Part shown: in pieces, positions 10,500 to 33,326 of the stretch | Numbering within the stretch: position 1 is the first letter of the stretch | How the letters are laid out: the number at the start of each line of letters is the position of its first letter | NCBI GenBank assembly: GCA_009861545.1 | Contig: VXME01000077.1 | Span: 1 to 63,144, forward strand | DNA: 63,144 nt | Source of the DNA: Acidobacteriota bacterium | GTDB lineage: Bacteria; Acidobacteriota; Vicinamibacteria; Vicinamibacterales; UBA8438 | Reading direction: 5' to 3' | The notes under the pieces: model-generated | Database searches by the model: none | What the model saw: only the letters and a program-made list of their open reading frames with translations | Told to the model about the DNA's origin: nothing | Position numbers and translations under genes: made by a program

Positions 10500-11522
10500 A
10501 TGACCCCCGACCTCTCGGTCGTGATTCCCCTCTACAACGAGGAGCCCAACGTTGCCGAGTTGCACCGCGAGCTGACCGCGGCGCTGGGCGCCTGGGGCCG
10601 TTCCTACGAGCTCCTGCTCGTCGACGACGGCAGCAGCGACGGCACCTTCGCGGCGTTGAAGTCGTTGCAGGCCGGGGACCCCCACGTTCGCGTCATTGCG
10701 TTTCGGCGGAACTTCGGACAGACCGCGGCGTTCGCGGCCGGCTTCGCGCACGCGCGCGGGCGGGTCATCGCTACCGCCGACGGCGACCTGCAGAACGACC
10801 CGCGGGACCTGCCCATGATGGTGGACAGGCTCGACCAGGGGCACGACATCGTCTGCGGGTGGCGCCGAAAGCGCCGCGATCCGTGGCTGAACCGGCGGCT
10901 GCCTTCGAACATCGCCAACTGGCTGATCTCGCGCACGACCGGCGTGCGGCTTCACGACTACGGCTGCTCGCTCAAGGTGTTCCGGGGCGATGTGGTCCGC
11001 TCTCTGCGGCTCTACGGCGAGATGCACCGGTTCATTCCGGCTATCGCCAGCGAGCAGGGGGTCCGCATCGCCGAGGTCGAGGTCAACCACCGGCCGCGGC
11101 GCATGGGCGAGTCCAAGTACGGTCTGGCCAGGACGATGCGGGTCGTTCTCGACCTGCTGACCGTCAAGTTCCTGCTCAGCTATTCGACGCAGCCGATTCA
11201 GATCTTCGGTCCGCCCGGGCTGTTGATGGGGACGGCCGGACTCGCCATCACCGCGTACCTCGGATACGTGCGGCTCGTCGCCGATCAGCCGATCGGGGAC
11301 AGACCGCTGCTGCTGCTCGGCATCCTGCTGATCTTCGCCGGCATGCAGTTCCTGACGTTGGGGCTCCTCGCCGAGTTGCAGGCCCGGACGTACCACGAAT
11401 CGCAGGACAAACCGATCTACGCGGTTCGCGAGATCCTGGAGACGCAGGCCGACCCGTCGCCGCACGACCGGGCATCCGACGCCACGGGCGGGGGCCGAGC
11501 CGGCCGCGTCACGCCCCGCTGA
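10500..11522 (+). CDS. Polyprenyl-phosphate glycosyltransferase (GT2, GtrB/DPM1-like)
   Basis: This encodes 340 residues. The N-terminal GT-A domain starts SVVIPLYNEEPNV, with VDDGSSDGT for nucleotide binding and TADGDLQNDPRDLP as the DxD-equivalent. RPRRMGESKYG is the conserved motif of the DPM1/GtrB/ArnC group. Two C-terminal membrane helices (FGPPGLLMGTAGLAITAYLGY and LLLLGILLIFAGMQFLTLGLL) match the GtrB/ArnC type. It should transfer a sugar from a nucleotide to undecaprenyl phosphate, making a lipid-linked donor for the GT-C proteins further along the window. It is convergent with the next gene (14 bp overlap). Confidence 0.85.
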   Translation: MTPDLSVVIPLYNEEPNVAELHRELTAALGAWGRSYELLLVDDGSSDGTFAALKSLQAGDPHVRVIAFRRNFGQTAAFAAGFAHARGRVIATADGDLQNDPRDLPMMVDRLDQGHDIVCGWRRKRRDPWLNRRLPSNIANWLISRTTGVRLHDYGCSLKVFRGDVVRSLRLYGEMHRFIPAIASEQGVRIAEVEVNHRPRRMGESKYGLARTMRVVLDLLTVKFLLSYSTQPIQIFGPPGLLMGTAGLAITAYLGYVRLVADQPIGDRPLLLLGILLIFAGMQFLTLGLLAELQARTYHESQDKPIYAVREILETQADPSPHDRASDATGGGRAGRVTPR

Positions 11523-12591
11523 GCAGACGGGCTGCCGCGAAGATCCAGACAACCACCACGGTTTGCTCGCCAAGGGCCGGAAGACGCCACGCGTCCTCGG
11601 CGAATGCCGTCCCGTCGTCCGCATGAAGGGCGACCGGCTGTCGGAGCTCGAAGGCAAGCTGATCGGCAACCCCGGCGCCGCGCGCGTGGTGGGGCTCTCC
11701 GGGGTGGAATACGAGCGCGTGCGTGTCGCCGACGACTGCGACCGGCGCGTCGCCACCGATCGCCACCGGTGCGAGCAGCGGATCCTCCGGCTCGATGATG
11801 CCGCGCACGCGAATCTCTTCGCGCGGCGGCGCTTCCGGCAGGCGCTGCCACAGATCCCCGCGGATCGGCGTGGTGAACCACGCCAGGCCGTATGGCCGGG
11901 CCGGCGTCATGTCGACAGCGACGTGGTCCCGAACCGCCTCCCCGATAATCCCCGCCGCCACGACGCACCCGACGCCCGACCAGTGCGAGTCCTGTCTGCA
12001 GTAGAGCGGCCCCTCGTGATGAAACCGGTCGCGGAGGAACGCCGGCGTCAGATCGACCAGACGAACGCCCTGGGCCCGGAGGTCGTCGTAGAGGGCCTGC
12101 AGGGTCGCGTCGAGCCGGCGGACCGGAATCGGTACGTCGAGGTCCGGCGCGAGCCGGTCGGGGTAGACGATGCCCTTCGGCGGCACGGGTGCGACGATGA
12201 GCTCGATGCCGTCGCGGCGCAGCCTCTCGGCCGCCGACGCGATCGCGGCGACAGCCGTACCCGAACGGGGAGCTGCGGCGCCCAGGGCGGCGGCTTCGTC
12301 CACGGCGAAGAGCCACCCGTCGCTGCCGGTCAGGACCTCCTCTCCCGCCGCCGACGCTTCCGCGGCCAGCCGCGCGCAGGCAACCCGGAATCGTTCGACG
12401 AGCTCGGGGTCGGCGGGACCCGCGCAGGCCATGGCCGCTGTCAACAGCAACCAGGAGGCCGCGGGGCCCCGGGGACGGCGCTTCTTGGGATCGGTGCCCT
12501 CGACGGGCCGGACGCGTGTCGTGCTTGCGGTCGAGCACGTCGCGGTCCGACGGCCCGCCGCCGGAGGCGTGCGTCGCGAATTGATTCGCAT
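11509..12591 (-). CDS. AlgX/AlgJ-like SGNH-fold protein (putative exopolysaccharide O-acetylation)
   Basis: This encodes 360 residues from ATG 12591 (ATG 12609 is possible). A basic N-terminus leads into the hydrophobic segment ASWLLLTAAMACAGP, a possible lipobox (AMAC). The mature part shows the AlgX/AlgJ pattern: TGSDGWLF near the start (as in family GxDGWLF), LIVAPVPPKGIVYPDRL, CRQDSHWSGVG (the D-x-HW catalytic pair) and VVGDTHALVFHPGE (the GDS/GDT nucleophile block with Thr in place of Ser). AlgX-type proteins O-acetylate polysaccharides in the periplasm. The Thr in place of the nucleophile Ser makes activity uncertain. It is divergent from another SGNH-type gene at 12640. Confidence 0.7.
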   Translation of the reverse strand: MRINSRRTPPAAGRRTATCSTASTTRVRPVEGTDPKKRRPRGPAASWLLLTAAMACAGPADPELVERFRVACARLAAEASAAGEEVLTGSDGWLFAVDEAAALGAAAPRSGTAVAAIASAAERLRRDGIELIVAPVPPKGIVYPDRLAPDLDVPIPVRRLDATLQALYDDLRAQGVRLVDLTPAFLRDRFHHEGPLYCRQDSHWSGVGCVVAAGIIGEAVRDHVAVDMTPARPYGLAWFTTPIRGDLWQRLPEAPPREEIRVRGIIEPEDPLLAPVAIGGDAPVAVVGDTHALVFHPGEPHHARGAGVADQLAFELRQPVALHADDGTAFAEDAWRLPALGEQTVVVVWIFAAARLLSGA

Positions 12592-12639
12592 GACTGTTGA
12601 GGCTAACATCTCGTCACCGTCGAATCGTCCGGCCTCGTC

Positions 12640-13713
12640 GTGAGATTCCACAGCAGCAGTACGCTCGTTCCAGTCGTCACGGTCCTCCTCTGGCTGTCCG
12701 CATGCGCAGAGTCGTCCGTGTTGCCGCCGGCGACGCCCTCGCCGTTGCCCGCCGACAGGATCGGGCGCCTCGCGATCGCCTGCCCGGCCGGCGGTCGGGC
12801 CCAGTCGTTCGACGGCAGACCGGCCACGGTGCACTTCGCGGCGCCTGTCGTCAGTGGCGGCCAGCCGCCGGTGACCGCGGGGTGCTCGCCGCACTCCGGC
12901 AGCGCCTTCGGAATCGGTACGACGGAGGTGACGTGCGGCGCCTCGGATGCACTGCAGCAGACGGCGAGCTGCGTGTTCGGGGTGACCGTTCTCGGTCCGC
13001 CGAAACTGGCGGTCACCCGGTTGCTCGCGTTCGGGGACAGCATCACCGCGGGTGTCGTGTCTTCACCGAACGGAGGAGCGAGGCTGGACAGCTTCAACTC
13101 CTACCCGGCCCGTCTCCGGCGGCGTCTGGCTTCACTCTATCTGACCCAGGACATCGAGGTCGTCAACGCCGGCGTGCCTGGAGAGGAAGCGTCGCAGGCC
13201 GAGGCACGATTCGGCCTGGAACTCGGGAGGCACCGCCCGGAGGTCGTGCTGTTGATGCACGGCACCAACGACCTGGACGTGATCGCCGGATCCGGCGCGG
13301 ACAGCGCCGCCGCGGCCCTCGACGGAATGGTCGCGGCCGCGCGCGCCGCCGGCATCGATACTCTTCTGATGACCATCCCACCCCAACGAGGCACCGGCTC
13401 GGCGTCTCTCGTATCGGGGCTGAACAGCAGCATCCAGGCGATCGCCGCCCGACACGGCGCCGAGCTCATCGATATCCATCACCTCCTGCTGACGGGACCG
13501 TGCAGCGGCCTGCCGCAGATTCCATGCATCGGGCGCGACGGCCTGCACCCGACGGAGCAAGGCTACGACTTGATGGCGCAAGAGCTGGAGCGGGTTCTCG
13601 TGGCCCGCTACGACGTGGAGATCGTGCCCGCGACCGGCGAGCAGCGCGGCGCTGCGCGTGGAATGGCGCTCGCGTCGGGTGAACAGTCGGTCGCTCGCCG
13701 GAGACAGGGATGA
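12640..13713 (+). CDS. GDSL/SGNH hydrolase lipoprotein with HYR-like domain
   Basis: This encodes 357 residues from GTG 12640. The N-terminus is a lipoprotein signal (LLWLSAC). Residues ~45-120 form an HYR-like beta domain (AAPVVSGGQPPVTAGCSPHSG). The catalytic SGNH blocks follow: LLAFGDSITAG (block I Ser), NAGVPGEEA (block II Gly), MHGTNDLD (block III Asn) and DGLHPTEQGY (block V Asp-His). It should be an esterase or deacylase attached to the outer membrane or facing the periplasm. The stop overlaps the next start at ATGA, so it is coupled to the outer-membrane protein gene downstream. Confidence 0.82.
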   Translation: MRFHSSSTLVPVVTVLLWLSACAESSVLPPATPSPLPADRIGRLAIACPAGGRAQSFDGRPATVHFAAPVVSGGQPPVTAGCSPHSGSAFGIGTTEVTCGASDALQQTASCVFGVTVLGPPKLAVTRLLAFGDSITAGVVSSPNGGARLDSFNSYPARLRRRLASLYLTQDIEVVNAGVPGEEASQAEARFGLELGRHRPEVVLLMHGTNDLDVIAGSGADSAAAALDGMVAAARAAGIDTLLMTIPPQRGTGSASLVSGLNSSIQAIAARHGAELIDIHHLLLTGPCSGLPQIPCIGRDGLHPTEQGYDLMAQELERVLVARYDVEIVPATGEQRGAARGMALASGEQSVARRRQG

Positions 13714-14546
13714 CCCACACCTTGTGGCGCTCGGCGGCGGGGATGGGATTGAGCTCGCTCCTGCTGTTCGCCGCTGCCGGCTCCGTGTTCGCACAGGAGG
13801 AAGAGCCCTCGGTTTCCCGGGCGCCGGAGGCTCGGTCCGGAGATTCCGGATGGCTCCTTTCCGGCCGCATGCTGCTCCACGTCAATGGTGGTTACCAGGT
13901 CGGTGACACGCGTTACGCCAGGGAGACCGATTTTCGAGCGTACGGCGAACGCGCGCGGTTTCTGGTGAGCGAGGAGTTCGGGGGCACCGCGCACGTCGAC
14001 GCCGGCGGCGCCCTGCATCTCTGGCGCGGACTGGAGATCGGCGCGAGCTACACCCAGGTCGGCAGGTCCGGGACAGCGCTGGTAACCGGCGCGGTCCCGC
14101 ACCCTCTCGATAGGGGCCGGGATCGGACGGCGCCTGCGCAGACGCTTACGCTGCCCCATCGGCAGCGAGCCACCCACGTCTACGCTGCGTGGCGCTTCAG
14201 ACCGAGCGGCATCTGGAGTCTGGCGTTCTCGGCAGGGCCCACTTACTTCAACCTGCGCCAGGGGGTCGTCGCCAACCTGACCGCAAGCGAGGCGGGCGGA
14301 CCGCCGTTCGCCGACGTCGATCTGCGGGTCGATACCGGGGAGCACACGAGAAACGGCGTGGGGTTCAATGCGGGCCTCGACGTTACGGTCATACTGACGC
14401 CCGCCAGGTTGGCGCCCAAGCTCGGCGTGGGGTACTTCGTACGTCTGACGCTCGGTTCGGTCGATACGCCTTCCGCCGACGGCGAGCAGAGTACCTACTA
14501 CGTCGGCGGGATCCAGACCGGCGCCGGGCTCCGCGTGCTGTTCTGA
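13710..14546 (+). CDS. Outer-membrane beta-barrel protein
   Basis: This encodes 278 residues, with a signal peptide (LLLFAAAGSVFAQ) and repeated amphipathic strands ending in GAGLRVLF, with a terminal phenylalanine. It overlaps the esterase gene by 4 bp, so the two products are probably made together and may act at the same outer membrane site. It is not related by eye to the barrel at 9065. No function can be given. Confidence 0.65.
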   Translation: MTHTLWRSAAGMGLSSLLLFAAAGSVFAQEEEPSVSRAPEARSGDSGWLLSGRMLLHVNGGYQVGDTRYARETDFRAYGERARFLVSEEFGGTAHVDAGGALHLWRGLEIGASYTQVGRSGTALVTGAVPHPLDRGRDRTAPAQTLTLPHRQRATHVYAAWRFRPSGIWSLAFSAGPTYFNLRQGVVANLTASEAGGPPFADVDLRVDTGEHTRNGVGFNAGLDVTVILTPARLAPKLGVGYFVRLTLGSVDTPSADGEQSTYYVGGIQTGAGLRVLF

Positions 14547-14554
14547 CGCGGAGG

Positions 14555-16201
14555 TCACCGATCCGGCTGACCGGGAAGGCGGTACGCGCCGCGAACGTCC
14601 GCGATTTCGGTGTCGATACGCTCCTGCGTCCAATCCAACGCTTCTGCCATGATCCCGGCCGCCGAGAACACCGCATCCTCTCCGGGGTAGCCCGCGGAAC
14701 CCGCTTCGGTACGTCTCAGCAGAGCATCGGCCAGTCTGACCGCCATTTCTTCTCGGACCGCGTACCTGATCTCCCCGGCAGTGACGGCGCACGTGGAGCC
14801 GAGCGGCACCCGGTCCGTCTTCGAGGAGGTCAGCATGCCGAGGACCTGCCGGTGTCGGGTTCCGTACGTGCAAGCCAGCCGCCTTCGCGTCTCGGGCGAA
14901 ATCGGGCCGTCCCCCGGACGCGTGACTTCTTTCATGAAGTCATCCACGTCGGCCGGGATGTCGCCGCCGAGGAGGGGTGTGTCCGCGGTCCGGCAGGGGG
15001 CGGCGACGCGCTGCAACTGGCGGACTGCCAGATCGACGGCGCGTTCGGCCGTATCGCGGGCGGTCGTGTAGCGCACGCCGAGCATGCTTATGAGCCCGTG
15101 GAGTCCGTCGTGGCGATGATCCACGATCTCGCTGATTGTCCTGCGCCGAACGCCGTCGCCGTTCGGAGACACCGGCAACAGGCCGCGATGGACCAGGCGC
15201 AGGTCGCCGAGCTCCAGGGACAGCCCCGGGAACGCCTCGCGGAGGGTTCCGATGAACCGCTCGATCTCGGTCCGATCGAGCGCGAGGCCGTTCGCACTGC
15301 CGTCGTAGCTGTCGTAGCTCGTGCCCGCGATGGCGAACTCGCGCCACGGCGCGATGAACAGGAATCGTCCGGCTGCCGGCCCGGCGACCGCATGCGAGCC
15401 CCGCAACGGCGACGCCATGACGAAGTTCATCGCCTTGGACAGTCGCCCATCGAGGCGTCCGCGGTCGCACGACGCGAGCCGGCGTGCGAGCTCCGGCGCC
15501 CAGGGTCCAGCGGCGTTGAGGACGATGTGGGCGCGAATCTCCAGCGACTCGCCGGTGAGGCGGTCGGATGCGCGAACGCCCTCGACCGTGTTTCCCCGCG
15601 TGAGCCCGGCCCTGGCCTCCACGTAGTTGGCGGCAATCGCCCCGTCCTCCACGGCGGACGCGATGAACGAGAAGTGGACCCGGTCGCTGTTGTGCATCTG
15701 GTGATCGAACCACTCCATGCCCCCGGTCACGCCGTCGGGATCGATGAGCGGATTGAGATCGAGACACTCGTTGCGGGACAGCAGTCGACTGGGCGGCAGT
15801 TGCCTGGAGACCGGGATTCCGTCGTTCCGATCGCGCGCCAGCAGGTCGTTGATCGCGAAATAGAGGCGCAGCAGCGTTCGATTGCGGGTTATCCCGCGGT
15901 ACGTCGGGACCACGAACGGCAATGGCCGGACCAGATGCGGAACGATGCGGCACAGGGCGCGGCGCTCGCGCACGAACCGGCGCAGCGCGGCGACGTTGCC
16001 GGACTGCAGCGCCCGAACCCCGCCGTGCAGTGTCTTTGCGCTGTTGAACGAGGTGCCGCCGCCGAAATCGGCGCGGTCGATGAGGCCGACGCGCAAGCCT
16101 CGCAGGGTCGCGTCCCAGGCCGCGATCGCGCCGTATATGCCCCCGCCGATGACGAGCAGGTCGAAGGTGCGGGACGTCAGCGTCGCGAGGTCTCTGCGCA
16201 C
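14555..16201 (-). CDS. FAD-dependent glycerol-3-phosphate dehydrogenase-like oxidoreductase
   Basis: This encodes 548 residues from GTG 16201. The N-terminus has the dinucleotide-binding motif DLLVIGGGIYGAIAAWDA, followed by the GlpD signatures LIDRADFGGGTSFNSAKTLHGG and GVRALQSGN. The C-terminal ~130 residues fit the GlpD alpha-helical cap (ACTYGTRHRQV, EIRYAVREEMAV). GlpD oxidises sn-glycerol 3-phosphate to dihydroxyacetone phosphate at the membrane. Here it overlaps the radical SAM gene by 25 bp at the end of a glycan operon, so a glycerol-phosphate or polyol substrate connected with the surface polymer is possible. A longer in-frame start at 16303 would overlap the neighbour much more and adds a poor leader. 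Confidence 0.82.
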   Translation of the reverse strand: MRRDLATLTSRTFDLLVIGGGIYGAIAAWDATLRGLRVGLIDRADFGGGTSFNSAKTLHGGVRALQSGNVAALRRFVRERRALCRIVPHLVRPLPFVVPTYRGITRNRTLLRLYFAINDLLARDRNDGIPVSRQLPPSRLLSRNECLDLNPLIDPDGVTGGMEWFDHQMHNSDRVHFSFIASAVEDGAIAANYVEARAGLTRGNTVEGVRASDRLTGESLEIRAHIVLNAAGPWAPELARRLASCDRGRLDGRLSKAMNFVMASPLRGSHAVAGPAAGRFLFIAPWREFAIAGTSYDSYDGSANGLALDRTEIERFIGTLREAFPGLSLELGDLRLVHRGLLPVSPNGDGVRRRTISEIVDHRHDGLHGLISMLGVRYTTARDTAERAVDLAVRQLQRVAAPCRTADTPLLGGDIPADVDDFMKEVTRPGDGPISPETRRRLACTYGTRHRQVLGMLTSSKTDRVPLGSTCAVTAGEIRYAVREEMAVRLADALLRRTEAGSAGYPGEDAVFSAAGIMAEALDWTQERIDTEIADVRGAYRLPGQPDR

Positions 16202-17313
16202 TTCCGCTTCTCGTACGACGCACGGCACAGGAACTTCACGTAGGGTAGGACCTGTTTGATAGCCGCGACGTTGATCTGGCAGGGGCTCACGCAGGTCGGA
16301 CACCGTTCCCGCCGTATGCGACGCCGGTGAGCCTGACTCGATTCCCGGAAGTAGATGTCGACCGGATCCTCTTCACGCACGTTGCCGACCGATTCGCTGT
16401 TCTCGCAGAAGAAGAAGCCGCCGTCCGGATTCAGCATGACGCCCTGGGTCTGGAACGGACACGGCGCCTGCCGGTGATAGCCGTTCGCGATCATGTCGGC
16501 ATAGTGCAGGTATATGTAGTTCTGACCGTCGAGCAGCGGGTCCGATCGAACCCGGTCGAGGAAGAACTGCCGCATCTTGTTCTCGGCCTCCCCGATCGGC
16601 CGGCAGCCGTCCGCCAGGTCGCCGTTTCCGAGCATCGGGTCGGTGACGCGGAACATGTTGAACACGATGTCGAGTCTTCTCCGGCGGGCCCAGGCGAGGA
16701 TGTTCTCGGCGTCGTCCAGGTTCTCGGAGAAGACGGTCGTCGATACGCCGAGGTTGAAGCGGCGCCGCCTCTGCAGTTCCTGCATCGCGCGGATCGTTTC
16801 CTCCGCCTTGTCGAAGCCGCGCGGTACGTCCCGTATGGCGTCGTGCCTTGGGCCGATGCCGTCGATGGCGATGCGGAAGCTGGCGATGACGTCCCGCTCG
16901 TGACACAACTCGACGATGTCGGTCAGCATCGGAATCGCCCGGTGGGGCGTGAGGCCGGTCGTGCTCAGGCCGAGTTTCCGCAGGTGCGGCAGCCGGTCGA
17001 GAACGACGCGGCAGACGTCGACCAGATCGTCCCGGGTCGTCGGCTCTCCTCCGGACAGGTGGAAGTTCTCCAGACGGGTCCACAACGCCGAGCCGAAGAC
17101 GCGCTCGATTTCCGCGAGAGTCAGGTCCGGTTGCAGGCCGCCACGCTTCCAGTTTCCGCACATCCGGCACTGCGCGTCGCAGTCGAACGTGCAGTTGAAG
17201 ATGAGTACGGTGGGTTGAATCGGCCGGAACCGCGCCAGCAGTGCGTCGGCAAGGTCTCTCGGGGCCCCTGCCGCGGCTCGAGCGAGGTACCGCAGCGCGT
17301 AGACCTGAGCCAC
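16177..17313 (-). CDS. Radical SAM enzyme (SPASM-like C-terminus)
   Basis: This encodes 378 residues from GTG 17313. The radical SAM cluster is CDAQCRMC (C-x3-C-x2-C), with an LSGGEPTTRDDL motif for SAM binding (GGE). The C-terminus has additional cysteines (APCPF, FFFCENSESVG, RCPTCVSPC) as in SPASM/twitch auxiliary-cluster enzymes. FFLD, NGYHRQ and MLNPDGGF resemble the MoaA/PqqE-like group. It sits between an epimerase gene (10 bp upstream) and the GlpD-like gene (25 bp overlap). The substrate is unknown; a sugar or lipid modification is the simplest idea from context. Confidence 0.8.
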   Translation of the reverse strand: MAQVYALRYLARAAAGAPRDLADALLARFRPIQPTVLIFNCTFDCDAQCRMCGNWKRGGLQPDLTLAEIERVFGSALWTRLENFHLSGGEPTTRDDLVDVCRVVLDRLPHLRKLGLSTTGLTPHRAIPMLTDIVELCHERDVIASFRIAIDGIGPRHDAIRDVPRGFDKAEETIRAMQELQRRRRFNLGVSTTVFSENLDDAENILAWARRRRLDIVFNMFRVTDPMLGNGDLADGCRPIGEAENKMRQFFLDRVRSDPLLDGQNYIYLHYADMIANGYHRQAPCPFQTQGVMLNPDGGFFFCENSESVGNVREEDPVDIYFRESSQAHRRRIRRERCPTCVSPCQINVAAIKQVLPYVKFLCRASYEKRKCAETSRR

Positions 17314-17323
17314 GGGAGGAATG

Positions 17324-18310
17324 CTACAGCAGCCCTTCCCGTCGATACCAATCGGCCGTGCGCCGCACTCCTTCGACGAGATCGACCGCCGGCTCGAAGC
17401 CAAGCTCGCGCCGCGCGCGCGCCGTATCGAACGCGCGGTTCTTGGTGAAGAACTCGACGCGCCGCCGGTAGAGCGGCGGCTCGACCCCCAGCGGCACGCA
17501 TACGGCTTCGCACACTGCGCCCGCCGCCCAGACCGGCCAGACCGGGAACCGCCAGCGCGGCGGTGGGACGCCGACCTCGTCGGCGACAACTCGAACGAGC
17601 TCCGTGAGCGGCGTATGCCGGCGGCCGGCCAGTATGTATGTCCGGCCGGCGGCAACCGGCGCCTCGCCGCAGAGTCGGAATCCCTCGACGAGATCGTCGA
17701 TGTACGTGAAGTGGTAGCACACCGCGCCGGAACCGAGCATCGGGAAGCGGCGTTTGGCGATACCCCGGAACAGCTTCAGGAATCTGGTGTCGCCGGGGCC
17801 GTAGATGCCGGCCGGACGGGCCACCACCACCTCCATGTCTCCCGACGCGCCCACGGACCTGGCCAGGCGTTCAGCTTCCAGCTTCGTTTCCTGGTAGATG
17901 TCGCCGGGCGCCAGCGGCGCGTCTTCGTCCGCGGGCGGACGCTCGACGTGCCCGTGGACGCCTACCGTGCTGCAGTGGACGAACCGGGTGACGCCGGCTG
18001 CCAGCGCGGCGTCGAGGAGCGCACGGGTGCCGCGCACGTTGACCGCGCGGTAGGCCGCATCCGGCTGACCCGCGTTCCTGTAGGTGGCCGCGATGTGGTA
18101 GACCGCGTCGACTCCGTCGCAGGCGCGCGCCAGCGACGCGTCGTCGGCCAGGTCGCCGAGCACGATCTCGACGCCGGCCTGCTCCAGCGCTGCGGCCCGC
18201 GGGCGGCTGCGGGGGCGAACGAGCCCGCGAACGGATGCGCCGCGCGTCGCGAGGTAACGGGCGAGATGGCCGCCCGTGAATCCGGTGGCGCCGCTGACCA
18301 GGACTCTCAT
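17324..18310 (-). CDS. NAD-dependent epimerase/dehydratase (extended SDR)
   Basis: This encodes 328 residues. The Rossmann motif is VSGATGFTGGHLARYL (GxxGxxG), the cofactor-contacting segment LGDLADDASL, and the catalytic pair YQETK (Y-x3-K) with an upstream serine in VHCSTVGVHGHV. It resembles dihydroflavonol-reductase-like or hopanoid-associated sugar epimerases. The start overlaps the stop of the GT4 gene at ATGA. It probably provides or alters a nucleotide sugar for the surface glycan. Confidence 0.85.
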   Translation of the reverse strand: MRVLVSGATGFTGGHLARYLATRGASVRGLVRPRSRPRAAALEQAGVEIVLGDLADDASLARACDGVDAVYHIAATYRNAGQPDAAYRAVNVRGTRALLDAALAAGVTRFVHCSTVGVHGHVERPPADEDAPLAPGDIYQETKLEAERLARSVGASGDMEVVVARPAGIYGPGDTRFLKLFRGIAKRRFPMLGSGAVCYHFTYIDDLVEGFRLCGEAPVAAGRTYILAGRRHTPLTELVRVVADEVGVPPPRWRFPVWPVWAAGAVCEAVCVPLGVEPPLYRRRVEFFTKNRAFDTARARRELGFEPAVDLVEGVRRTADWYRREGLL

Positions 18311-19530
18311 GCGGCTCCCGAATGCGGGGCGCCGACGCTTCCGATGGACGGACGCCGGCGGAGAAGCCGTTCGTACGCGGCCGCGGTACGCGAGAGGTAG
18401 GTCTCCCGGCTGTAGCGTGAAGCGGCCAGCAAGCGGGCGGCCGTTGCCAGTCGGCGGCGTTCCTCGGGCCGGTCCATGAGTCTAGCCAGGCCGGCAGCCA
18501 GAGCAGGAGCATTCGGAGGCACGAGCGCCGCGGTCGAGTCGCTGAGGACCTGCGTGTGCGTCTGAAGATCCGTCGCCACGATGGGTTTGCCCGACCGCAG
18601 GTACGAGTAGATCTTCAAGGGCGTGTTGGTGCCGCTGATGCGTGGCGACACCAGGATGTCGCTGGCGGCCACGAAGCTGGGGATCTCCTGCGGTGGACGC
18701 TGGCCCGCGAGCACGAGCGGGCTGCCGGACCGCACCGCCTGCGCACGGGCTCGATCGACCTGCGCGACCGTTCCGCCGACCACGAGGACACGCGCGTCGG
18801 GGTGGGAGCGCCGCAGCAGCGCGGCCGCCTCGGTGAGCAGATCGAGTCCCTGGTACGGCTCGAAGGTTCCGGTATAGAGCACCAGCGGCTGGTCGGAGCC
18901 CACGCCGTAGCGCGCGCGCATCTCCCGCGCCGGGATCGGCTTGGTCTCCTCCACGTCGCCCCCCATCACGTTCTCGATCAGGAACGCCCGGCGGCCGGCG
19001 CCCCGCGCGACGGCGGTCGCCTGCAACTCGGGACAGATCGTGATGATGACCTGCGAGTGCTCGATCATCGAGATCTCGACGCGCTCGAACAGCCGGCGGA
19101 GCAGCGCGGAGCGGGTGTATTGGAAATTGGCCAACTGTTGCGGCAGGCTGGAGTGCATGTCGTACAGGTGGGGAATCCCGAGTCGTCTCGCCAGCCACAG
19201 CCCGAGAACGCCGGCCTCCTCGTGGGAGTGGATCGCGTCGTAACGGCGGGCGAACGCCAGCCGTGTTGCGGTCACGGCGAGGAGTCCATCGAGGAGCAGC
19301 TTCGTGGCCGACGGGCCGACCTTCACGCCCTCCACCAACGGCGGTCGCGCGCAGCGCACGATCCGCAGGTTGCGGAGCGTCACGTCGCGGCCGAACGGAT
19401 AGGTCACGAGATCGACGGCGTAGCCGAGCTCGCCTAGGGCCTTGATGCGGTGGTACTCGCTGAAGGGCGTTCCCCGAGGCTCGAAGAAGGGCTCGGGGGC
19501 GAGCATCAGAATCCTCGCCAGACTGCTCAC
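18307..19530 (-). CDS. Glycosyltransferase family 4
   Basis: This encodes 407 residues from GTG 19530. It has the GT-B fold: ILMLAPEPFFEPRGTPFSEYHRI at the acceptor-side N-terminus, SHEEAGVLGLWLARRLGIPH, then the donor side LVLYTGTFEPYQGLDLL and DILVSPRISGTNTPLKIYSYLRSGKPIVATD, with the E-x7-E motif partly degenerate (the usual first Glu is replaced). It transfers a sugar from a nucleotide donor with retention. It belongs to an operon with the downstream epimerase, radical SAM and GlpD-like genes. Confidence 0.85.
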   Translation of the reverse strand: MSSLARILMLAPEPFFEPRGTPFSEYHRIKALGELGYAVDLVTYPFGRDVTLRNLRIVRCARPPLVEGVKVGPSATKLLLDGLLAVTATRLAFARRYDAIHSHEEAGVLGLWLARRLGIPHLYDMHSSLPQQLANFQYTRSALLRRLFERVEISMIEHSQVIITICPELQATAVARGAGRRAFLIENVMGGDVEETKPIPAREMRARYGVGSDQPLVLYTGTFEPYQGLDLLTEAAALLRRSHPDARVLVVGGTVAQVDRARAQAVRSGSPLVLAGQRPPQEIPSFVAASDILVSPRISGTNTPLKIYSYLRSGKPIVATDLQTHTQVLSDSTAALVPPNAPALAAGLARLMDRPEERRRLATAARLLAASRYSRETYLSRTAAAYERLLRRRPSIGSVGAPHSGAA

Positions 19531-19540
19531 GTGGCCGCTG

Positions 19541-19546
19541 ACTCTA
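19541..19546 (-). promoter_or_regulatory. Putative -10 hexamer TAGAGT before GT4 gene
   Basis: TAGAGT on the minus strand ends 10 nt before the GTG start at 19530, which would give a leaderless or nearly leaderless transcript for the GT4-epimerase-radical SAM-GlpD operon. Confidence 0.4.
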
Positions 19547-19587
19547 CCATACGGAGGAGAGCGTCGAATCGGAACCGGTACGAGCAG

Positions 19588-20688
19588 TCACGGGGTTCGG
19601 TGCGATCCGCCGCGGACCCGACGAATCCGGCCGGGGGCGACCAGGCGCCGCCGCCGGGGCAGCCACGGGATGAACCTGCCATTGAGTCTCATGAGCCGCC
19701 ACGGATCGTCTCCCGCACGGACGGCCCGCAGGCCCAGAAGCCGGCTGGAGAAGGCGGTTCGAAAGCCGATCGACCGCGCCGCGCCGTATGCGATGGCGCC
19801 CGCGATCTCCCAGGGAAAGCAGAGATGGCGGACGGTCCTGGTTCGAAGTCTGTCGCGCAACACCGCCAGCGCGCGATCCAGGTCCTCGTAGATCGCATCT
19901 CGGCGCTCGTTCTCGGTTTCGAAGACACCCCTGTCGTTCGCGTTCACGAGTGCCAGCAGCTCGGCTTGCCAGCCCTTGCGCCGGAAGAACGCCGCACCAC
20001 CCCGGGCGCGCACGTACGCCGTGCACCGCTCGCGCGCGCCCGTGCCGTCGAAGTGTCGGAGGGCGTCGCTCAAGCGTGATCGCTGCGGGTAGAGAGGCGC
20101 ACCGAGATCGTCGGGTGCGAGGTAGCCGTCGGCTGCGCGCCGGGAGATCAGCGGTCGGTCGAGCGGATGCCACCTGGCGAAGTCCGGGGTGACGAAACCC
20201 TGCGGCTGATCGTGGAAGAAGATCTTCGAATGCGAGTAACCGTGACACTGTACGTCGACGACACCCTCCCGGTGGAGCGCCTGCAACTCGGGCCACGTCA
20301 CGAAGTCGCCCGCCCGCGCCGGCGGCGGCGGGACCGGGTCGTCGATTGTCGTGCGAACGGCGGCCGCGTCCTCGATCCGTCCCGGGATGGCGAACGTGAT
20401 TGCCCGGAGTTCGTACCGGCGAAGCAGCGGGACGGCGATGGTCCACAGGCTCGCGTGCGCGTCGTCGAAGCAGATTGCCGCCGTTCGTTCGCCGGGGTGC
20501 ACGCCGCCGCGCACGAAACGGTCGATTTCCTCGGTGGTTACGGTCCGGTACCCGTGCTCGGCCAGGTATTGCAGCTTCGGCTCGAGCGAGGCCCTCGTCA
20601 CTTCGTGGAGATGAAACACCGGCAGGAGGCGCCCGATCGGTCCGCCGAAGAGGAAGGCAGGGTAGCGGCCCGTGGCGAGGTCGAGCAT
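19588..20688 (-). CDS. Polysaccharide deacetylase-like protein (variant active-site motif)
   Basis: This encodes 366 residues from ATG 20688. The segment LLPVFHLHEV starts the NodB-like fold; motif 1 is ICFDDAHASL in place of TFDDG, with both aspartates kept; motif 2 is CHGYSHSK (H-x3-H). The usual third motif (RxPxG) is replaced by HLCFPWE. It may therefore be an active deacetylase with unusual specificity. A start at GTG 20742 is also open. I prefer 20688 because TACGTT sits 7 nt upstream, as in other genes here, and because the protein then begins MLDLATGRYP. It lies between glycosyltransferase and flippase genes. Confidence 0.7.
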   Translation of the reverse strand: MLDLATGRYPAFLFGGPIGRLLPVFHLHEVTRASLEPKLQYLAEHGYRTVTTEEIDRFVRGGVHPGERTAAICFDDAHASLWTIAVPLLRRYELRAITFAIPGRIEDAAAVRTTIDDPVPPPPARAGDFVTWPELQALHREGVVDVQCHGYSHSKIFFHDQPQGFVTPDFARWHPLDRPLISRRAADGYLAPDDLGAPLYPQRSRLSDALRHFDGTGARERCTAYVRARGGAAFFRRKGWQAELLALVNANDRGVFETENERRDAIYEDLDRALAVLRDRLRTRTVRHLCFPWEIAGAIAYGAARSIGFRTAFSSRLLGLRAVRAGDDPWRLMRLNGRFIPWLPRRRRLVAPGRIRRVRGGSHRTP

Positions 20689-20695
20689 GCCTCGC

Positions 20696-20701
20696 AACGT
20701 A
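20696..20701 (-). promoter_or_regulatory. Putative -10 hexamer TACGTT before deacetylase-like gene
   Basis: TACGTT on the minus strand ends 7 nt before ATG 20688. A competing TATACT on the same strand at 20799-20804 would instead serve a start at 20742. Confidence 0.35.
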
Positions 20702-20895
20702 CCGCCCCGTTCTGCGAATGGCACAAGAGCCGAGGTGCCCACCGCGCTTGACTCACCACGGCCGCGAGCTCCAGGAACGCCGGAGTGCCGTGACGCAAAG
20801 TATACCCCTGCGCTGCGCGCGGCAGCCCGGGGTGACGGGTCTCGGGACGCGAATCGTCCGACGGGATCGGACCCCCGCCGAGGTCGTCGGCTCGT

Positions 20896-22146
20896 CTACC
20901 GGGGCGGGGCATGTGTGGGCCAGAGCCGATGGCGGAGCCCCCATCCGAGCAGAGCCGCGCTCAGGGCTTCGCCCGCCACCGTGGCGGCCGCCGCGCCATG
21001 CATGCCGTAGCGTGGGATCAGGACGAGATTCATCGCGATGTTCGCCAGACATCCGATGACCGCGATTTGCAGCAGTCGGGAGCCGGCATCGACCGACAGT
21101 GCGACCGCGTGCAGGACGAAGAGCGGAAACACGAACACGAACCCGACGCCGAGTATCTGCAACGGCAGTCCCGCCGCTGCGTACTCGGCGCCGAAGAAGA
21201 CGCCGACCAGGGGGTTGGCCAGGAGAACCGCGCCGATGCACACGGGGACGGCCAGTACGAAGCTCACCCATAGAGCCGTGCACGACAACCTCGCGTGGGC
21301 CGCCCGATCGCGGACGAAGTGGCTCGCCAGCCGTGGAATCAGGACCGCATGCAGCACCTGCGGCGCGCTGCTCAGGCCTTCGTAGAGGCGGTACGCCGCG
21401 CTGTAGAGCCCCGTTTCCGCGTCGCTGCGGAGAGCCCACAGCATGACGGTGTCGACGTAGCTGTAGAGATAGAACACGACCGCGAACGCCCCGAACGGAA
21501 GGGCCTGGAGCTGGAGAGCACGCCACGACGACACGTCGAACGCGAAACGAATTCGCCCGACCTGGCTCGCCGCCAGCATGCAGGCGACGAAGAGCGACAG
21601 CATGCGGGCGAACACGAAGCTCGCGGCGAGTCCGAGCAGCCCGAATCCGCCGGTCAGGGCCGCGGATCCGAGCCCCAGGAGAAGCAGGCGGTCGATGACC
21701 ACCGAGGTGCTGTCGAGTCCGAAGCGTTCGAGCCCCTGGAGCGTGTGTCGGATCGTGAGAAGGTACGATCGCAGGATCGATGCGGCTCCCAGCAGGTAGC
21801 AGGCGAATCGCTCGTCGGGCTCCGCGCCCAGGACATGTACCGCCAACAGCAGGGCTATCGAGGCCGCGGCGGCGAGCACCAGTTTCAATCCGAAGGTGTC
21901 GGCCAGGAGACGGCGGGCCGCCCGCCTCTCGCGGGCCACTTCACGGGTCGTGATCTCCTTGAGTCCGAAGTCGACGAGAGCCTCGAAGATCATCGCCACC
22001 GCGAGTGCAAAGGAGAACTTGCCGTACTCGACGTCTCCGAGCACCCGGCCGGCCAGGATGAGCAGTGCGGCGAGCAGCAGCGTGCTGGCGATCGAACCGC
22101 TGGCGCGGGCTGCGTTGCCGACGAGGCTCTGGTTCCGCGGGGTCAC
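20896..22146 (-). CDS. Wzx-type lipid-linked oligosaccharide flippase (copy 1)
   Basis: This encodes 416 residues from GTG 22146, which overlaps the upstream GT4 stop (GTGA). It has about twelve hydrophobic segments with the MATE-like oligosaccharide-flippase pattern: LILAGRVLGDVEYGKFSFALA, DFGLKEITTREVAR and SAAYRLYEGLSSAPQVLHAVLIPRL. It is paralogous along its length to the protein at 28659 (shared DFGLKEITTR, GLYxAAYRLYEGL and YGMHGAAAATVAGEALS). Flippases of this group move undecaprenyl-linked repeat units to the periplasm. A longer frame to the right reads through the neighbouring gene out of phase and is not real. Confidence 0.85.
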   Translation of the reverse strand: MTPRNQSLVGNAARASGSIASTLLLAALLILAGRVLGDVEYGKFSFALAVAMIFEALVDFGLKEITTREVARERRAARRLLADTFGLKLVLAAAASIALLLAVHVLGAEPDERFACYLLGAASILRSYLLTIRHTLQGLERFGLDSTSVVIDRLLLLGLGSAALTGGFGLLGLAASFVFARMLSLFVACMLAASQVGRIRFAFDVSSWRALQLQALPFGAFAVVFYLYSYVDTVMLWALRSDAETGLYSAAYRLYEGLSSAPQVLHAVLIPRLASHFVRDRAAHARLSCTALWVSFVLAVPVCIGAVLLANPLVGVFFGAEYAAAGLPLQILGVGFVFVFPLFVLHAVALSVDAGSRLLQIAVIGCLANIAMNLVLIPRYGMHGAAAATVAGEALSAALLGWGLRHRLWPTHAPPR

Positions 22147-23366
22147 GCCGCCTCGCGTCGGAACGCTGCGACGTCGGTCAGGAGCCCGGCGATGCGCGCC
22201 GCCATCCGCTCGCCGTCGAAATGACGCTCGGCCGTGGCCCGCGCCGCTCGGCGGAGCGCGACGCGAAGCGCGGTGTCGCCGATCGCGCGCCGCAGCGTTG
22301 CAGCCAGATGGTCCGGTCGCCCGGGTTCGCAGAGCAGCGCGTTCTCGCCGTGGTCGAGGTGGTCGGCGATGCCCGCGACCGGCGAGACGACCGGCGCCAG
22401 GCCGCACGCCATGGCCTCCGCCACCGCGATGGCGAAGGCCTCGTAGTAGGAAGGAAGCACGAATACGTCGGCCGCCTGCATGACCCTGGCCGGCGTGTCG
22501 GTGGCGCCCAGGAACCGCACCCGTTCGGAGAGGCCGTACCGCGCGACCAGCTCCCGGGCCTGGGGGCCGGCATCCAGATGATGGCCCGGCATCTCCGGCC
22601 CGGCCAGTGCCAGCACCGCCGACTCGTCGTCGACGCGCCGCCAGGCATCGACGAGATCGAGGACGCCCTTCTCCCGGCTGAGCCGGCCGAGAAACAGGCA
22701 GATGATTCGCTCCCGCGGCAGGCCGAGCTCGTCGCGGATCCGCCGTACCGCATCCGTCGCGGCCGGACGGTACCGATCGAGGCGAACGCCGTGGGGCTGG
22801 TACACCATTCGCCGCTCCGGTATTCCCGCTGACCGGCCTTCGTTCGAAATCTCTTGCGATATGCAGACGTACGCGTCGGCGGCGCCGTAGACCCGGCGGC
22901 CCGTGCTCTTGATGGCCCGTCCCAGTCTTCCCGCCGGATCCAGGGCGGCGCGCGCCAGCATGCCGTCCCAGTGCGTGCAGGACAGTACTCCGGGCGTCGC
23001 CGCCTGGAAGACGAGCCGCTTGGAGAGGAGGTGGCGCGCCGTTACCGCCGCGACGCCGACTCCCCGCGGATCGGGGCAGTAGACGACATCGTAGCGATTG
23101 CGCAATCGAACCAGTGCCCAGAAGATGAACGGCAGAGCCAGCCATTTCGCCCACTGCCGGCGGCTGCCCGACGGGCGTGTCCGATGCACGGGTACGCCGT
23201 CGACCGTTGGCGGCGCGGGTCGATCCATCCCGACGCGCGTGGTTAGCACCAGTGTCTCGTAGCCTCGCTCGTGCATCCAGCGAGCAATGAGGCGCGCGTG
23301 CGTTTCCACGCCACCGAGGATCGGCGCGTAGTACGTCGTCAGCACCAGCACCCGTGGACGGCGCAT
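22143..23366 (-). CDS. Glycosyltransferase family 4
   Basis: This encodes 407 residues from ATG 23366. The N-terminus is RVLVLTTYYAPILGGVETHA, the typical GT4 acceptor-domain GG-x-E motif. The donor domain has LFLGRLSREKGVLDLV, RVRFLGATDTPARVMQAADVFVLPSYYEAFAIAVAEAMACGL (the E-x7-E pair is seen) and VAGIADHL. It lies 1 bp after the GT2 gene and overlaps the flippase gene by 4 bp, so GT2, GT4 and flippase form one operon. Confidence 0.88.
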   Translation of the reverse strand: MRRPRVLVLTTYYAPILGGVETHARLIARWMHERGYETLVLTTRVGMDRPAPPTVDGVPVHRTRPSGSRRQWAKWLALPFIFWALVRLRNRYDVVYCPDPRGVGVAAVTARHLLSKRLVFQAATPGVLSCTHWDGMLARAALDPAGRLGRAIKSTGRRVYGAADAYVCISQEISNEGRSAGIPERRMVYQPHGVRLDRYRPAATDAVRRIRDELGLPRERIICLFLGRLSREKGVLDLVDAWRRVDDESAVLALAGPEMPGHHLDAGPQARELVARYGLSERVRFLGATDTPARVMQAADVFVLPSYYEAFAIAVAEAMACGLAPVVSPVAGIADHLDHGENALLCEPGRPDHLAATLRRAIGDTALRVALRRAARATAERHFDGERMAARIAGLLTDVAAFRREAA

Positions 23367-23367
23367 G

Positions 23368-24441
23368 TCATGTACCCGACGCGTTTCTGCGGCCCGGCGA
23401 CAGTACCGGCCTGATGGCGCGCCAGTAGGCGCCAAGCATCCGCTCGTACCCGTGCCGCGCCCGGCCGGTCAGGTTCCCGCCGGCCAGATCGGGCCGCACG
23501 ACCAGCGCGCCGTCCTTCAGCAGCTCCCGGTCGGAACGAACCCGGATGCGCTGGACTCGCGCCCGGTCGGCGGCCAGTGCGGGAAGCAGGCGGCACAGGC
23601 CGGCCCACGCTCTGAAGTAGGTGACGGCGTGTCCCTTGGCCGTCAGGACGATCGCCTGCAGCGCTTCGTGAAGCACGAAAGCCGGCAGCAGAACGAGGAT
23701 CGTACGGACCTCGTAGTTCTTGAGGATCACGTGCCAGCGGTTGCGGATCTGGTAGTAGAAGAGCCACGAGCCGCGCCGGCGGCTGCGGTGGCGAACCCGC
23801 GCGCGTGGAGGCTCGACGATTCGGTAGCCGGCCAGCCTGACCCGGTGCGTGAAGTCTCCATCCTCCTTGCCGATGAAGTAGCGCTCGTCGAACAACCCGA
23901 CTTCGGCCGCGACCGCGCAGTCGATGAGCAGAGCGCAACCCGAGGCTGCGCCGATGTCACGCGTGTCCGTTCCGCGCGCCTCGACCGGTCGATCCAGGTA
24001 TGGATTGACTGCTTCGCAGATGAAGTGGAACCCGGTGTCCGCGTACTGGATCAGGTCCGGTCGATCCGCGTGAATCACGACGGGGCTGGCGATGGCCGCG
24101 CCGGGCGTTTCCGCGGCCCGCCGCAGCAGGTCAATCGTGTCTGCTTCCACCATGACGTCGGCATCAAGCAGCAGCACCCAGGGGGTCGGACACTCGACAA
24201 TGGCCACGTTGCGGCCCGGACCGGGCCCCCGGTTGGCGTCGAGTCGGCGCTGGTGCACGCCCGGCGCGCTCCGGGAAAGATACGCGGCCGTCTCGTCCGT
24301 ACTGGCGACGTCGACTACCGTGATTCGCGCTTCGGGGCAGCCCGCCTCCCGTAGCGATTGCAGCGTGTCGGGAAGCGTAGCCGCGGCGTTGTGGGCCACG
24401 ATCGCGACCGACACGTCGCGCGGAAAATCTGGTCGGTTCAC
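23368..24441 (-). CDS. Glycosyltransferase family 2
   Basis: This encodes 357 residues from GTG 24441. The GT-A domain begins VSVAIVAHNAAATLPDTL, with VDVASTDET for nucleotide binding, LLLDADVMVEADT (the DAD variant of DxD) and KEDGDFTHRVRLAGYRI (the ED catalytic block). A C-terminal hydrophobic patch (ILVLLPAFVLHEALQAIVL) suggests membrane association. It resembles rhamnosyl- or galactosyltransferases of surface polysaccharides; donor and acceptor are not decided. Confidence 0.85.
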   Translation of the reverse strand: MNRPDFPRDVSVAIVAHNAAATLPDTLQSLREAGCPEARITVVDVASTDETAAYLSRSAPGVHQRRLDANRGPGPGRNVAIVECPTPWVLLLDADVMVEADTIDLLRRAAETPGAAIASPVVIHADRPDLIQYADTGFHFICEAVNPYLDRPVEARGTDTRDIGAASGCALLIDCAVAAEVGLFDERYFIGKEDGDFTHRVRLAGYRIVEPPRARVRHRSRRRGSWLFYYQIRNRWHVILKNYEVRTILVLLPAFVLHEALQAIVLTAKGHAVTYFRAWAGLCRLLPALAADRARVQRIRVRSDRELLKDGALVVRPDLAGGNLTGRARHGYERMLGAYWRAIRPVLSPGRRNASGT

Positions 24442-24635
24442 GGTCCGGACGCCTTGCGATGGTTTCGTTCGGGAACCGCCGCGTTGAAGTGTCTCCGGTA
24501 TGAAGTGGCCTGCGACGAATCAGGGAGCCGGCCGGCCGCCCGAATAATCGTGAGCAATCATAGCCGAACGAGGTGGTGGAGCGCCGCAAGGGGGCGAGGC
24601 CGAGCCGGTCGGGGCGCCCCGGCGGTCGAGCGCTG

Positions 24636-25502
24636 CTATCGCTTGCGGGCGACGACGTAGCAGTCGAAGGGTCGCAACTCGACCTCGTCGGCGCCCAGTC
24701 GCACCAGGTGGTCCAGTATCTCGCGGGCATAGGTCAGATAGACCGCGTCAGCGTCCGGGAACCAGGTCCGGGATTGCAGACAGATGGGGTCGAGGTGGAC
24801 CAGAAAACGGTGCTCGGGCGCGTCGATGGGATGATTCCGGCGGAGAAACCAGGGGTACGCAACCCGGTGCTGGTACAGGTGGAGCGCGGCATCCAGCCAT
24901 CTGAACGTGCGGATCTTGTCCTTGAAGGGACGCGGGCTGAGACCGTAGTCGAAGGACTTGATCGAAGCGCGTTGGCGAAACGGAGGCGTGAGAACGGCGA
25001 TGAGTCCACCCGGCCGAACGAGCCGAATCATCTCCTCGAGCAGGAGGTGCGGCCAGCAGAGATGCTCGATGGTGTAGAGGCTGATCGCTGCGTCGAACGA
25101 ACCGGCGGACAGGGAGGTGCGGTAGAGGGAGCCCGCCACGAACTCGTGGTTCGGCATGCGTTCCCGGTTGCGGTCGATCTGCGGCGTCGACCAGTCCACG
25201 CCGGTATAACGGACATCGCGATCTTCCAGGTTGCGGCACGGATGTGCGGTCCCGCACCCGAGGTCGACCACGCGGCTGCCCGGCGGGATGGTCTGCTTGA
25301 GCCGCCAGTGTCCGGTCATCTTCGGCGTCCAGGTGGGGTTGGTCCGCTCGGCGGCCTCGAAGTAACCGGCGGCGACGGCGCTGTCGTTGTAGAAGGCTTG
25401 CAGCCGCTCGCTCAACGCCTGGAGCTGCGGCTGCGCCTCCGGATCCAGGGCGCTACAGAGCCGCGGGCGGGGTCGCAAACGGCTTGGAAGGGACCAGGAC
25501 AC
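24636..25502 (-). CDS. Class I SAM-dependent methyltransferase
   Basis: This encodes 288 residues from GTG 25502. Motif I is SRVVDLGCGTAHPCRNL, followed by YTGVDWS (acidic end of beta 2), SFDAAISLYTIEHL (motif IV region) and LVRPGGLIAVLTPPF. It is similar in style to UbiE/Bud23-type or sugar methyltransferases of glycan clusters. About 194 bp without a gene separate it from the GT2 gene on the left; I see no further gene there. Confidence 0.8.
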   Translation of the reverse strand: MSWSLPSRLRPRPRLCSALDPEAQPQLQALSERLQAFYNDSAVAAGYFEAAERTNPTWTPKMTGHWRLKQTIPPGSRVVDLGCGTAHPCRNLEDRDVRYTGVDWSTPQIDRNRERMPNHEFVAGSLYRTSLSAGSFDAAISLYTIEHLCWPHLLLEEMIRLVRPGGLIAVLTPPFRQRASIKSFDYGLSPRPFKDKIRTFRWLDAALHLYQHRVAYPWFLRRNHPIDAPEHRFLVHLDPICLQSRTWFPDADAVYLTYAREILDHLVRLGADEVELRPFDCYVVARKR

Positions 25503-25559
25503 GGGAGAGGGTTGGGAGGGGACCGCCCGTTCTGGACGCCCGTCCCGAATACCGGCAGG

Positions 25560-26450: not shown

Positions 26451-26458
26451 GCGCACGG

Positions 26459-26464
26459 AGTCTA
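26459..26464 (-). promoter_or_regulatory. Putative -10 hexamer TAGACT before lipoprotein gene
   Basis: TAGACT on the minus strand ends 8 nt before ATG 26450, consistent with a leaderless transcript. The GTG at 26456 would lie only 2 nt after it, which argues against that start. Confidence 0.45.
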
Positions 26465-26724
26465 CTGCGTCTCGGCGAGCCGATGCAACGGGAGACGGTG
26501 AGCCGGCGCCCTGCTTTCACTCCGGCTTCGCTGCGGCCGGGGTCGGGACGCACCGCGCTGCACACCGGCCGCCTGCGCCCGCGGACGCTGAGTCCGCGGT
26601 GGTAGAATCCGCATTTATCGGCAAGGCCGGAGCCGTGGTGCTCGTGGGCTTCGATGACTGCCGCGCCGTCGTCTTCATGCCGTCCGCCGCATGCAGGGGC
26701 TGGAATCCCGATGAGAGCAGTCAA

Positions 26725-29921: not shown

Positions 29922-29928
29922 CCCCGCC

Positions 29929-29934
29929 ACCCTA
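29929..29934 (-). promoter_or_regulatory. Putative -10 hexamer TAGGGT before second flippase gene
   Basis: TAGGGT on the minus strand ends 7 nt before ATG 29921, the same spacing as in several other operon-leading genes here. Confidence 0.35.
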
Positions 29935-29957
29935 CGCGCCCGCTGGGGCCTGCGCTG

Positions 29958-30986: not shown

Positions 30987-31101
30987 AGCTCCGGATTCGC
31001 CTTCAGGAGGCGGCTGACGGCACCGGCAGGAGGCGGCGCGAAGCTGTCCTGCCGCGTGGCGAGGTACTTTTCGGTGAGACCCGGACGCGCATGTTGGCGC
31101 G

Positions 31102-33108: not shown

Positions 33109-33115
33109 GCGCAGC

Positions 33116-33121
33116 AGAATA
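33116..33121 (-). promoter_or_regulatory. Putative -10 hexamer TATTCT before GT-C gene
   Basis: TATTCT on the minus strand ends 7 nt before ATG 33108, as expected for a leaderless transcript. Confidence 0.45.
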
Positions 33122-33326
33122 CCAGACGCAAAGTGGAGCTTCTCCCGGTTCACTTCGCGTGCGGCAAGGGTCGGGTTGCCGATCCGTCCATACGCCGGGA
33201 AGTGCGGTCGTTGCCCCGGGGTGCGGTCCGGCGGAGAGGCGGCGTTGACCGGTACTTGCCCTTGCTGCGACAATTCGGCGGTTGGCTGCAGAGAAGGTAG
33301 CTGCCGTCCGCGACCCTGGCGCCCGA

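Follow-up and report, generated by a model that had tools for sequence, protein, structure and literature searches.

A radical SAM enzyme and an overlapping GlpD-like oxidoreductase as candidate tailoring enzymes of a surface polysaccharide in Vicinamibacteria

We describe here a pair of overlapping genes, one for a radical S-adenosylmethionine (SAM) enzyme (positions 16177-17313) and one for an oxidoreductase that resembles GlpD, the glycerol-3-phosphate (G3P) dehydrogenase (positions 14555-16201), both on the minus strand of a 63,144-nucleotide contig from an Acidobacteriota bacterium of the class Vicinamibacteria (VXME01000077.1, assembly GCA_009861545.1; the whole stretch is called the window below) and both within a polysaccharide operon of Wzx flippase and glycosyltransferase (GT) type. 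We give roughly even odds, about 50%, to the idea that the two proteins are redox tailoring enzymes of a single Wzx-type surface-polysaccharide pathway, working on the same building block or on neighbouring units. Both enzyme types are of course already known; what we did not find in the literature searched is the clade of GlpD relatives to which the second protein belongs, which sits in glycan loci and has lost an arginine (R317) of the canonical enzyme, and the association of this clade with an unnamed radical SAM family.

On the minus strand, the operon reads GT2, GT4, a Wzx-like flippase, a deacetylase-like gene, a further GT4, an epimerase of the short-chain dehydrogenase/reductase (SDR) family, the radical SAM gene and finally the GlpD-like gene. 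The radical SAM gene starts at a GTG at 17313, giving (M)AQVYALRYL where relatives begin MAQVYAAKYL, and the last base of its stop codon is 16177; for the GlpD-like gene the start codon is a GTG at 16201, giving (M)RRDLATL, and its relatives show M-x-RDLRxLAD. Because both starts agree with those of relatives, the overlap of the reading frames can be fixed at 25 bp (16177-16201, minus strand), exactly as a first-pass annotation, made from the letters alone, had proposed. The same annotation had placed the pair downstream of an epimerase and a GT4 gene in a polysaccharide operon, and the coordinates agree: the GT4 gene (18307-19530; PF00534 and PF13579) overlaps the epimerase gene by 4 bp, and this NAD-dependent epimerase/dehydratase gene (17324-18310; PF01370) stops 10 bp ahead of the radical SAM start.

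Calling the second protein 'GlpD-type', as had been done at the outset, is right at the level of fold and domains. Its 548 residues carry PF01266 (118.8 bits) and PF16901 (75.5 bits), which is to say the DAO fold and the DAO_C domain, both over the Pfam cut-off, and its structural model (predicted local distance difference test, pLDDT, 85.1) matches GlpD and GlpO entries (PDB 2qcu, 2rgh and 3da1) with Z scores of 36-40 at 25-29% identity, with a shared flavin adenine dinucleotide (FAD) motif. The differences lie in the substrate site, where R317 and K354, among the residues compared, are said to bind glycerol phosphate according to the structure study of the E. coli enzyme; our own literature searches turned up no paper on GlpD substrate residues. 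With numbers counted on an alignment with 2qcu, the equivalents in the window protein are L342 for R317 and R377 for K354, and R54 is kept as R63. This pattern extends well beyond one protein, since the R317 position is Arg in 15/15 canonical rows and in 0/107 rows of the GlpD-like clade (where Leu, Val, Tyr, Thr or Ile stands instead), and the Y358 position is Tyr in 14 of the 15 canonical rows and in none of the 107, the clade having Ala or Gly. R54 is kept in all 122 rows, and K354, a Lys in every canonical row, is represented in the clade by 62 Lys, 44 Arg and 1 Ala, the window's own subclade having Arg; the R332 position could not be placed, the alignment being ambiguous there, and carries no weight. 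The loss is notable because the FAD and G3P sites are described as conserved across the archaeal enzymes, GlpD, GlpA and GlpO (PMC11962113).

The tree tells a similar story. It is a quick LG+G4 tree with long branches flagged and motif columns left in, built from 129 sequences (128 plus the window protein) that came down to 120 once duplicates and those under 400 aa were dropped, to which two plasmid sequences were added; the canonical rows were chosen from the tree and a GGK motif, not from R317. The window protein falls in a 44-row clade with the motif VRYTTAR (Shimodaira-Hasegawa-like approximate likelihood ratio test, SH-aLRT, 99), nested in the 107-row clade (SH-aLRT 99) that stands separate from the 15 canonical rows, and relatives at 36-67% identity are found in other genomes of the class. 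Taken together, cut-offs, tree and residues all indicate that this is not a housekeeping GlpD, and the loss of R317, along with the separate branching of the clade, is in favour of a substrate in glycan synthesis that has so far gone unrecognised. Both points raised about it at first pass, clustering and glycerol-phosphate residues, came out on the side of a distinct enzyme.

The glycan-linked clade also seems not to be confined to Acidobacteriota. A protein encoded on the Antarctobacter heliothermus plasmid pSMS3-1 (L209:6995-8530; motifs WVHQGLIP and VGVKYTTAR) lacks R317, and its gene has a pair of GT2 genes and a gene for an O-antigen ligase nearby. The gene for an Indioceanicola protein (CMAGLLP, SGVKFTTAR) is near open reading frames (ORFs) that match GT2 genes best. 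The tree places both proteins within the 107-row clade, though on long branches. A Thermus plasmid match, by contrast, adjoins glpK. Transposase genes of the IS6 and IS30 families lie some 2-4 kb downstream of the Antarctobacter gene.

How tightly are the two enzymes tied to each other? Across 193 genomes of the class, searched with an E-value limit of 1e-40 and with at most seven and at most ten candidates scored per genome, the radical SAM protein was matched in 75 and the GlpD-like protein in 124, with both in 70, radical SAM only in 5 and GlpD-like only in 54. Put differently, a GlpD-like match occurs in 70/75 radical SAM genomes versus 54/118 of the others (Fisher odds ratio 16.6, p 2e-12, uncorrected for kinship). 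The counts were drawn from hand-transcribed tables; best matches in G171, G162, G189 and G098 were set aside as canonical, with a sequence check for G171 and G189 only, and the 124 are counted matches, not every one of them fetched as a sequence. Where both genes are on one contig (44 of the 70 genomes) they are always within 25 kb of each other and in 32 cases within 10 kb, the gaps between matches running from -22 bp in the window to 24,953 bp with a second smallest value of 843 bp; in the single-contig genomes G030 and G042 the pair is 9.9 and 9.7 kb apart. The pair is clearly not a peculiarity of the window genome, which is nonetheless the only one in which the genes overlap. Neither outcome that the first-pass annotation had named as fatal to its reading (a pair confined to this genome, or a GlpD-like protein grouping with housekeeping GlpD) was thus seen. 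The coupling is one-sided: a genome with the radical SAM gene is almost certain to show a GlpD-like match and the reverse does not hold, since GlpD-like matches without a radical SAM gene are common. With 54 of the 124 GlpD-like genomes having no radical SAM match, this is not an obligate two-enzyme unit.

In relatives, each gene has its own habitual company (the following counts are of loci, not independent genomes, and some stretches were entered twice, for example L028 and L100). The GlpD-like gene lies within 400 bp of a gene from one methyltransferase family in 32/33 loci having both (such as L026, L028/L100, L032 and L104), so that these two may be the true functional partners in most genomes, and within 400 bp of an asparagine-synthase-type amidotransferase gene in 15/22, and the radical SAM gene lies within 400 bp of a flippase-like (PF03706) gene, whose protein matches TIGR00374 only, in 32/47. 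The SDR enzyme can be tied to the radical SAM gene as well, because G090 and G088, more distant members of the class, share the order SDR, radical SAM, amidotransferase (loci L214 and L215), their SDR and radical SAM matches being 808 and 787 bp apart. Most of this company is missing from the window genome. The GlpD-linked methyltransferase of G001 has 69-100% identity matches in G001, G003, G005 and G011, and its best match in the window genome reaches 34%, on another contig; a search with the G001 flippase-like protein likewise picked up these four relatives, which served as controls, and gave 0 matches in the window genome, where an amidotransferase query and a second methyltransferase query gave weak matches only (best 31% and 35%). 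Loss of the neighbours is likelier than an assembly gap, since the assembly is rated 99.29% complete. The direct pairing thus looks derived, with the neighbours lost and the two oxidoreductases kept and packed behind the SDR and GT4 genes.

In favour of the proposal that both enzymes tailor one building block or adjacent ones are the make-up of the operon, the separate GlpD-like clade with its residue losses, the co-occurrence and linkage in the class, the Antarctobacter locus, a fold shared with enzymes that act on sugars, and the fact that the pair has been kept in the window genome without its usual partners and now overlaps. Several observations weigh against it. In the other 43 same-contig genomes the genes are 0.8-25 kb apart and have other immediate partners; in 26 of the 70 genomes they are on different contigs, and in G053 they are unlinked, since the GlpD-like gene is found 108 kb from the end of a contig of 499 kb that does not carry the radical SAM gene. 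The genomes with a GlpD-like match and no radical SAM gene include G001 and G003, of the window's own genus, and G016, G048, G098, G114 and G124 have the radical SAM gene without a GlpD-like match. As many as 62 of the 107 clade rows retain Lys at the K354 position, and the model of the radical SAM protein most resembles maturases of ribosomally synthesised and post-translationally modified peptides (RiPPs). The original suggestion of an unrecognised modified polyol or sugar made by a coupled pair survives in part: the clade and the loss of R317 favour a new substrate, and the overlap in one genome alone, together with the many GlpD-like genomes devoid of the radical SAM gene, makes the case for direct coupling weaker.

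The best of the competing explanations, which we consider a genuine possibility while leaning away from it, is that the two enzymes tailor the same polymer at different units and in different steps, and that the overlap is a by-product of losing a methyltransferase gene from between them. In several loci the methyltransferase gene does indeed sit between the two, and in L028/L100, L036, L026 and L032 the order is radical SAM (+), methyltransferase (-), GlpD-like (+), with 846-1056 bp separating the pair; the methyltransferase is moreover the most constant partner of the GlpD-like gene, which is without it in the window genome (G000), and the 54 genomes with GlpD-like matches alone count in its favour. 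Against this, the sole genome observed to be without the other partners has retained this pair and drawn it together until the genes overlap, and 70 of 75 radical SAM genomes have the GlpD-like match.

The radical SAM protein itself (378 aa) has PF04055 (53.2 bits) as its sole Pfam family over the cut-off, a family found in 36/36 aligned members, and its CX3CX2C site (C45, C49 and C52), along with C41, is invariant in all 36. It had been credited at first pass with extra C-terminal cysteines; five of these (C285, C303, C338, C341 and C345) are likewise invariant in 36/36, and the last two of the window protein (in KFLC and KRKC) are not conserved. The C-terminal domain appears to be SPASM/twitch-like, PF13186 scoring 19.3 bits at 285-341, just below its cut-off of 21.5, and matching 33/36 members at E-values up to 1; no NCBIfam model was over its cut-off among the best 25 of the 29 models matched. 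Relatives at 52-73% identity occur in 29 of 59 other genomes of one comparison set, which, with the GlpD-like relatives noted above, takes chance out of the question. A species collection yielded 45 loci, 40 of them titled Acidobacteria, Acidobacteriota, Acidobacterium or Vicinamibacteria/-les and the remaining five Acidimicrobiia (2), Cyanobacteria (1), Sulfopaludibacter (1) and Spirochaetes (1, a 22% match); in a phylum-wide spread of 297 genomes, 18 had a match, 5 of these outside the class, and a plasmid search returned one 26% match only, from Parabacteroides.

The structural model of this protein is less secure (pLDDT 71.6, and below 50 at 343-357 in a weak C-terminal part), and its best fold matches are SkfB (Z 22.9), SuiB (Z 22.4), BlsE (Z 21.5) and MoaA (Z 20.7), with DesII (Z 17.9) and BtrN (Z 15.1) lower and SpeY in the Foldseek list. 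A RiPP-type peptide maturase that lies in a glycan locus by chance is what the first two would suggest, as would the weak NCBIfam matches, which are largely to peptide maturases and cofactor enzymes. We find this improbable: identity to SkfB and SuiB is 11-16%, BlsE and MoaA score almost as high, and the window offers no space for a precursor peptide gene, with 10 bp to the SDR gene on one side and the overlap on the other, while the frequent neighbours elsewhere (among ORFs of at least 70 aa) are flippase-like, methyltransferase, GlpD-like and amidotransferase genes. BlsE (whose entry title names blasticidin S), BtrN and SpeY share the CX3CX2C site and probably the SPASM/twitch fold, although BlsE and BtrN are only 13-15% identical to our protein, whose gene is in a polysaccharide locus. 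BlsE, DesII and BtrN are enzymes acting on sugars or sugar-like compounds, as are SpeY and NeoN, the latter also with a SPASM domain. BtrN, which belongs to butirosin synthesis, is described as a twitch enzyme carrying out the two-electron oxidation of an aminocyclitol (PMC9012708), and is the closest worked precedent we found for the radical SAM step. Least credible of all is that the GlpD-like gene is the organism's ordinary G3P dehydrogenase, for although no second full-length homologue of GlpD was found in the window genome, and although the protein has the fold of GlpD/GlpO, DAO_C domain included, and belongs to a clade that often retains K354, that clade has lost R317 throughout, the window protein has Arg for K354 and scores below the curated cut-offs (NF008899 and NF009906, 187.5 of 360 and 188.9 of 352 bits), and G030, G042, G052 and G190 each have a canonical gene in addition to a GlpD-like one.

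What, then, might the pair do? In the tailoring scheme that we prefer, the GlpD-like FAD dehydrogenase would oxidise a secondary alcohol of a glycan precursor, a sugar or polyol unit presumably devoid of the phosphate whose binding in GlpD involves R317, and, like GlpD, would probably feed its electrons into the respiratory chain. Hydrogen abstraction by the radical SAM enzyme would take place at a carbon atom of this building block or of a neighbouring unit, most likely for a dehydrogenation (as in BtrN) or an epimerisation, and the SDR enzyme beside it may work in the same branch. A bolder version, speculative and on balance unlikely, is a relay in which a single sugar, carried on a lipid or a nucleotide, would be worked on first by one and then by the other of two enzymes, the presumed SPASM/twitch radical SAM protein and a GlpD paralogue that lacks R317 and is coupled to quinone, with the SDR enzyme also taking part, yielding a keto-, epimerised or deoxy-keto sugar or polyol unit that no known surface-glycan pathway makes and that would be characteristic of Vicinamibacteria.

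Whatever the chemistry, a large clade derived from GlpD, comprising 107 of the 122 rows of the tree, is easily mistaken for G3P dehydrogenase, and where looked at it is mostly in glycan loci and linked to the unnamed radical SAM family; among open-licence papers we found none on this clade in such loci or on that link. If our proposal is true, radical chemistry and a quinone-type dehydrogenase meet where acidobacteria, a group with few cultured members, build their surface polysaccharides, and an unusual sugar should be there to detect as the product.

The rest of the operon, all on the minus strand, comprises genes for a polysaccharide deacetylase-like protein (19588-20742; PF01522), the Wzx-like flippase (20896-22227; PF01943, 91.9 bits; start position provisional), the other GT4 (22143-23435; PF00534, 120.1 bits) and the GT2 (23368-24441; PF00535), with a SAM-dependent methyltransferase (24636-25502; PF08241) of a different family from the one that abuts the GlpD-like gene elsewhere. 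In a scan for promoters and terminators over 14400-25600, signals were no more numerous than in shuffles.

Three other identities for the locus were considered and set aside. A hopanoid HpnA/HpnH reading fails on scores, as the best NCBIfam match of the SDR protein, HpnA (TIGR03466), reaches 184.9 of 367.65 bits and the radical SAM protein 27.6 of 225.05 bits for HpnH, with TIGR00374 the only match of the flippase-like partner. The window GT4 proteins and the relatives' amidotransferase resemble TIGR04063, TIGR03088 and TIGR03108 of XrtA/PEP-CTERM loci, below cut-off, and an exosortase-type locus was rejected when exosortase PF09721 gave 0 matches in the window genome (1 of 14 control genomes matched). 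The decaprenyl-phosphoryl ribose pathway, brought to mind by a UbiA-like gene at 29958-30986, likewise has sub-cut-off matches only.

That gene, for a UbiA prenyltransferase resembling decaprenyl-phosphate phosphoribosyltransferase below cut-off, belongs to a row (28659-33273, minus strand) with a second Wzx-like flippase and a protein weakly matching PMT. The block is flanked by two genes of one family with no Pfam match (26287-28584 and 33282-35132, both plus strand), a family whose members also turn up close to the radical SAM locus of relatives. Where the glycan locus borders on other genes, an AlgX-type SGNH protein (11509-12594, minus strand) and a GDSL lipase-like protein (12640-13713, plus strand) are encoded side by side, perhaps for O-acetylation of the polymer. 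Finally, two tandem 541-aa reading frames on the minus strand (40899-42524 and 42774-44399) encode proteins that are 100% identical, the first of them without a Pfam match; a segment may have been duplicated recently and without change, a mobile element may be present, or the assembly may be at fault.

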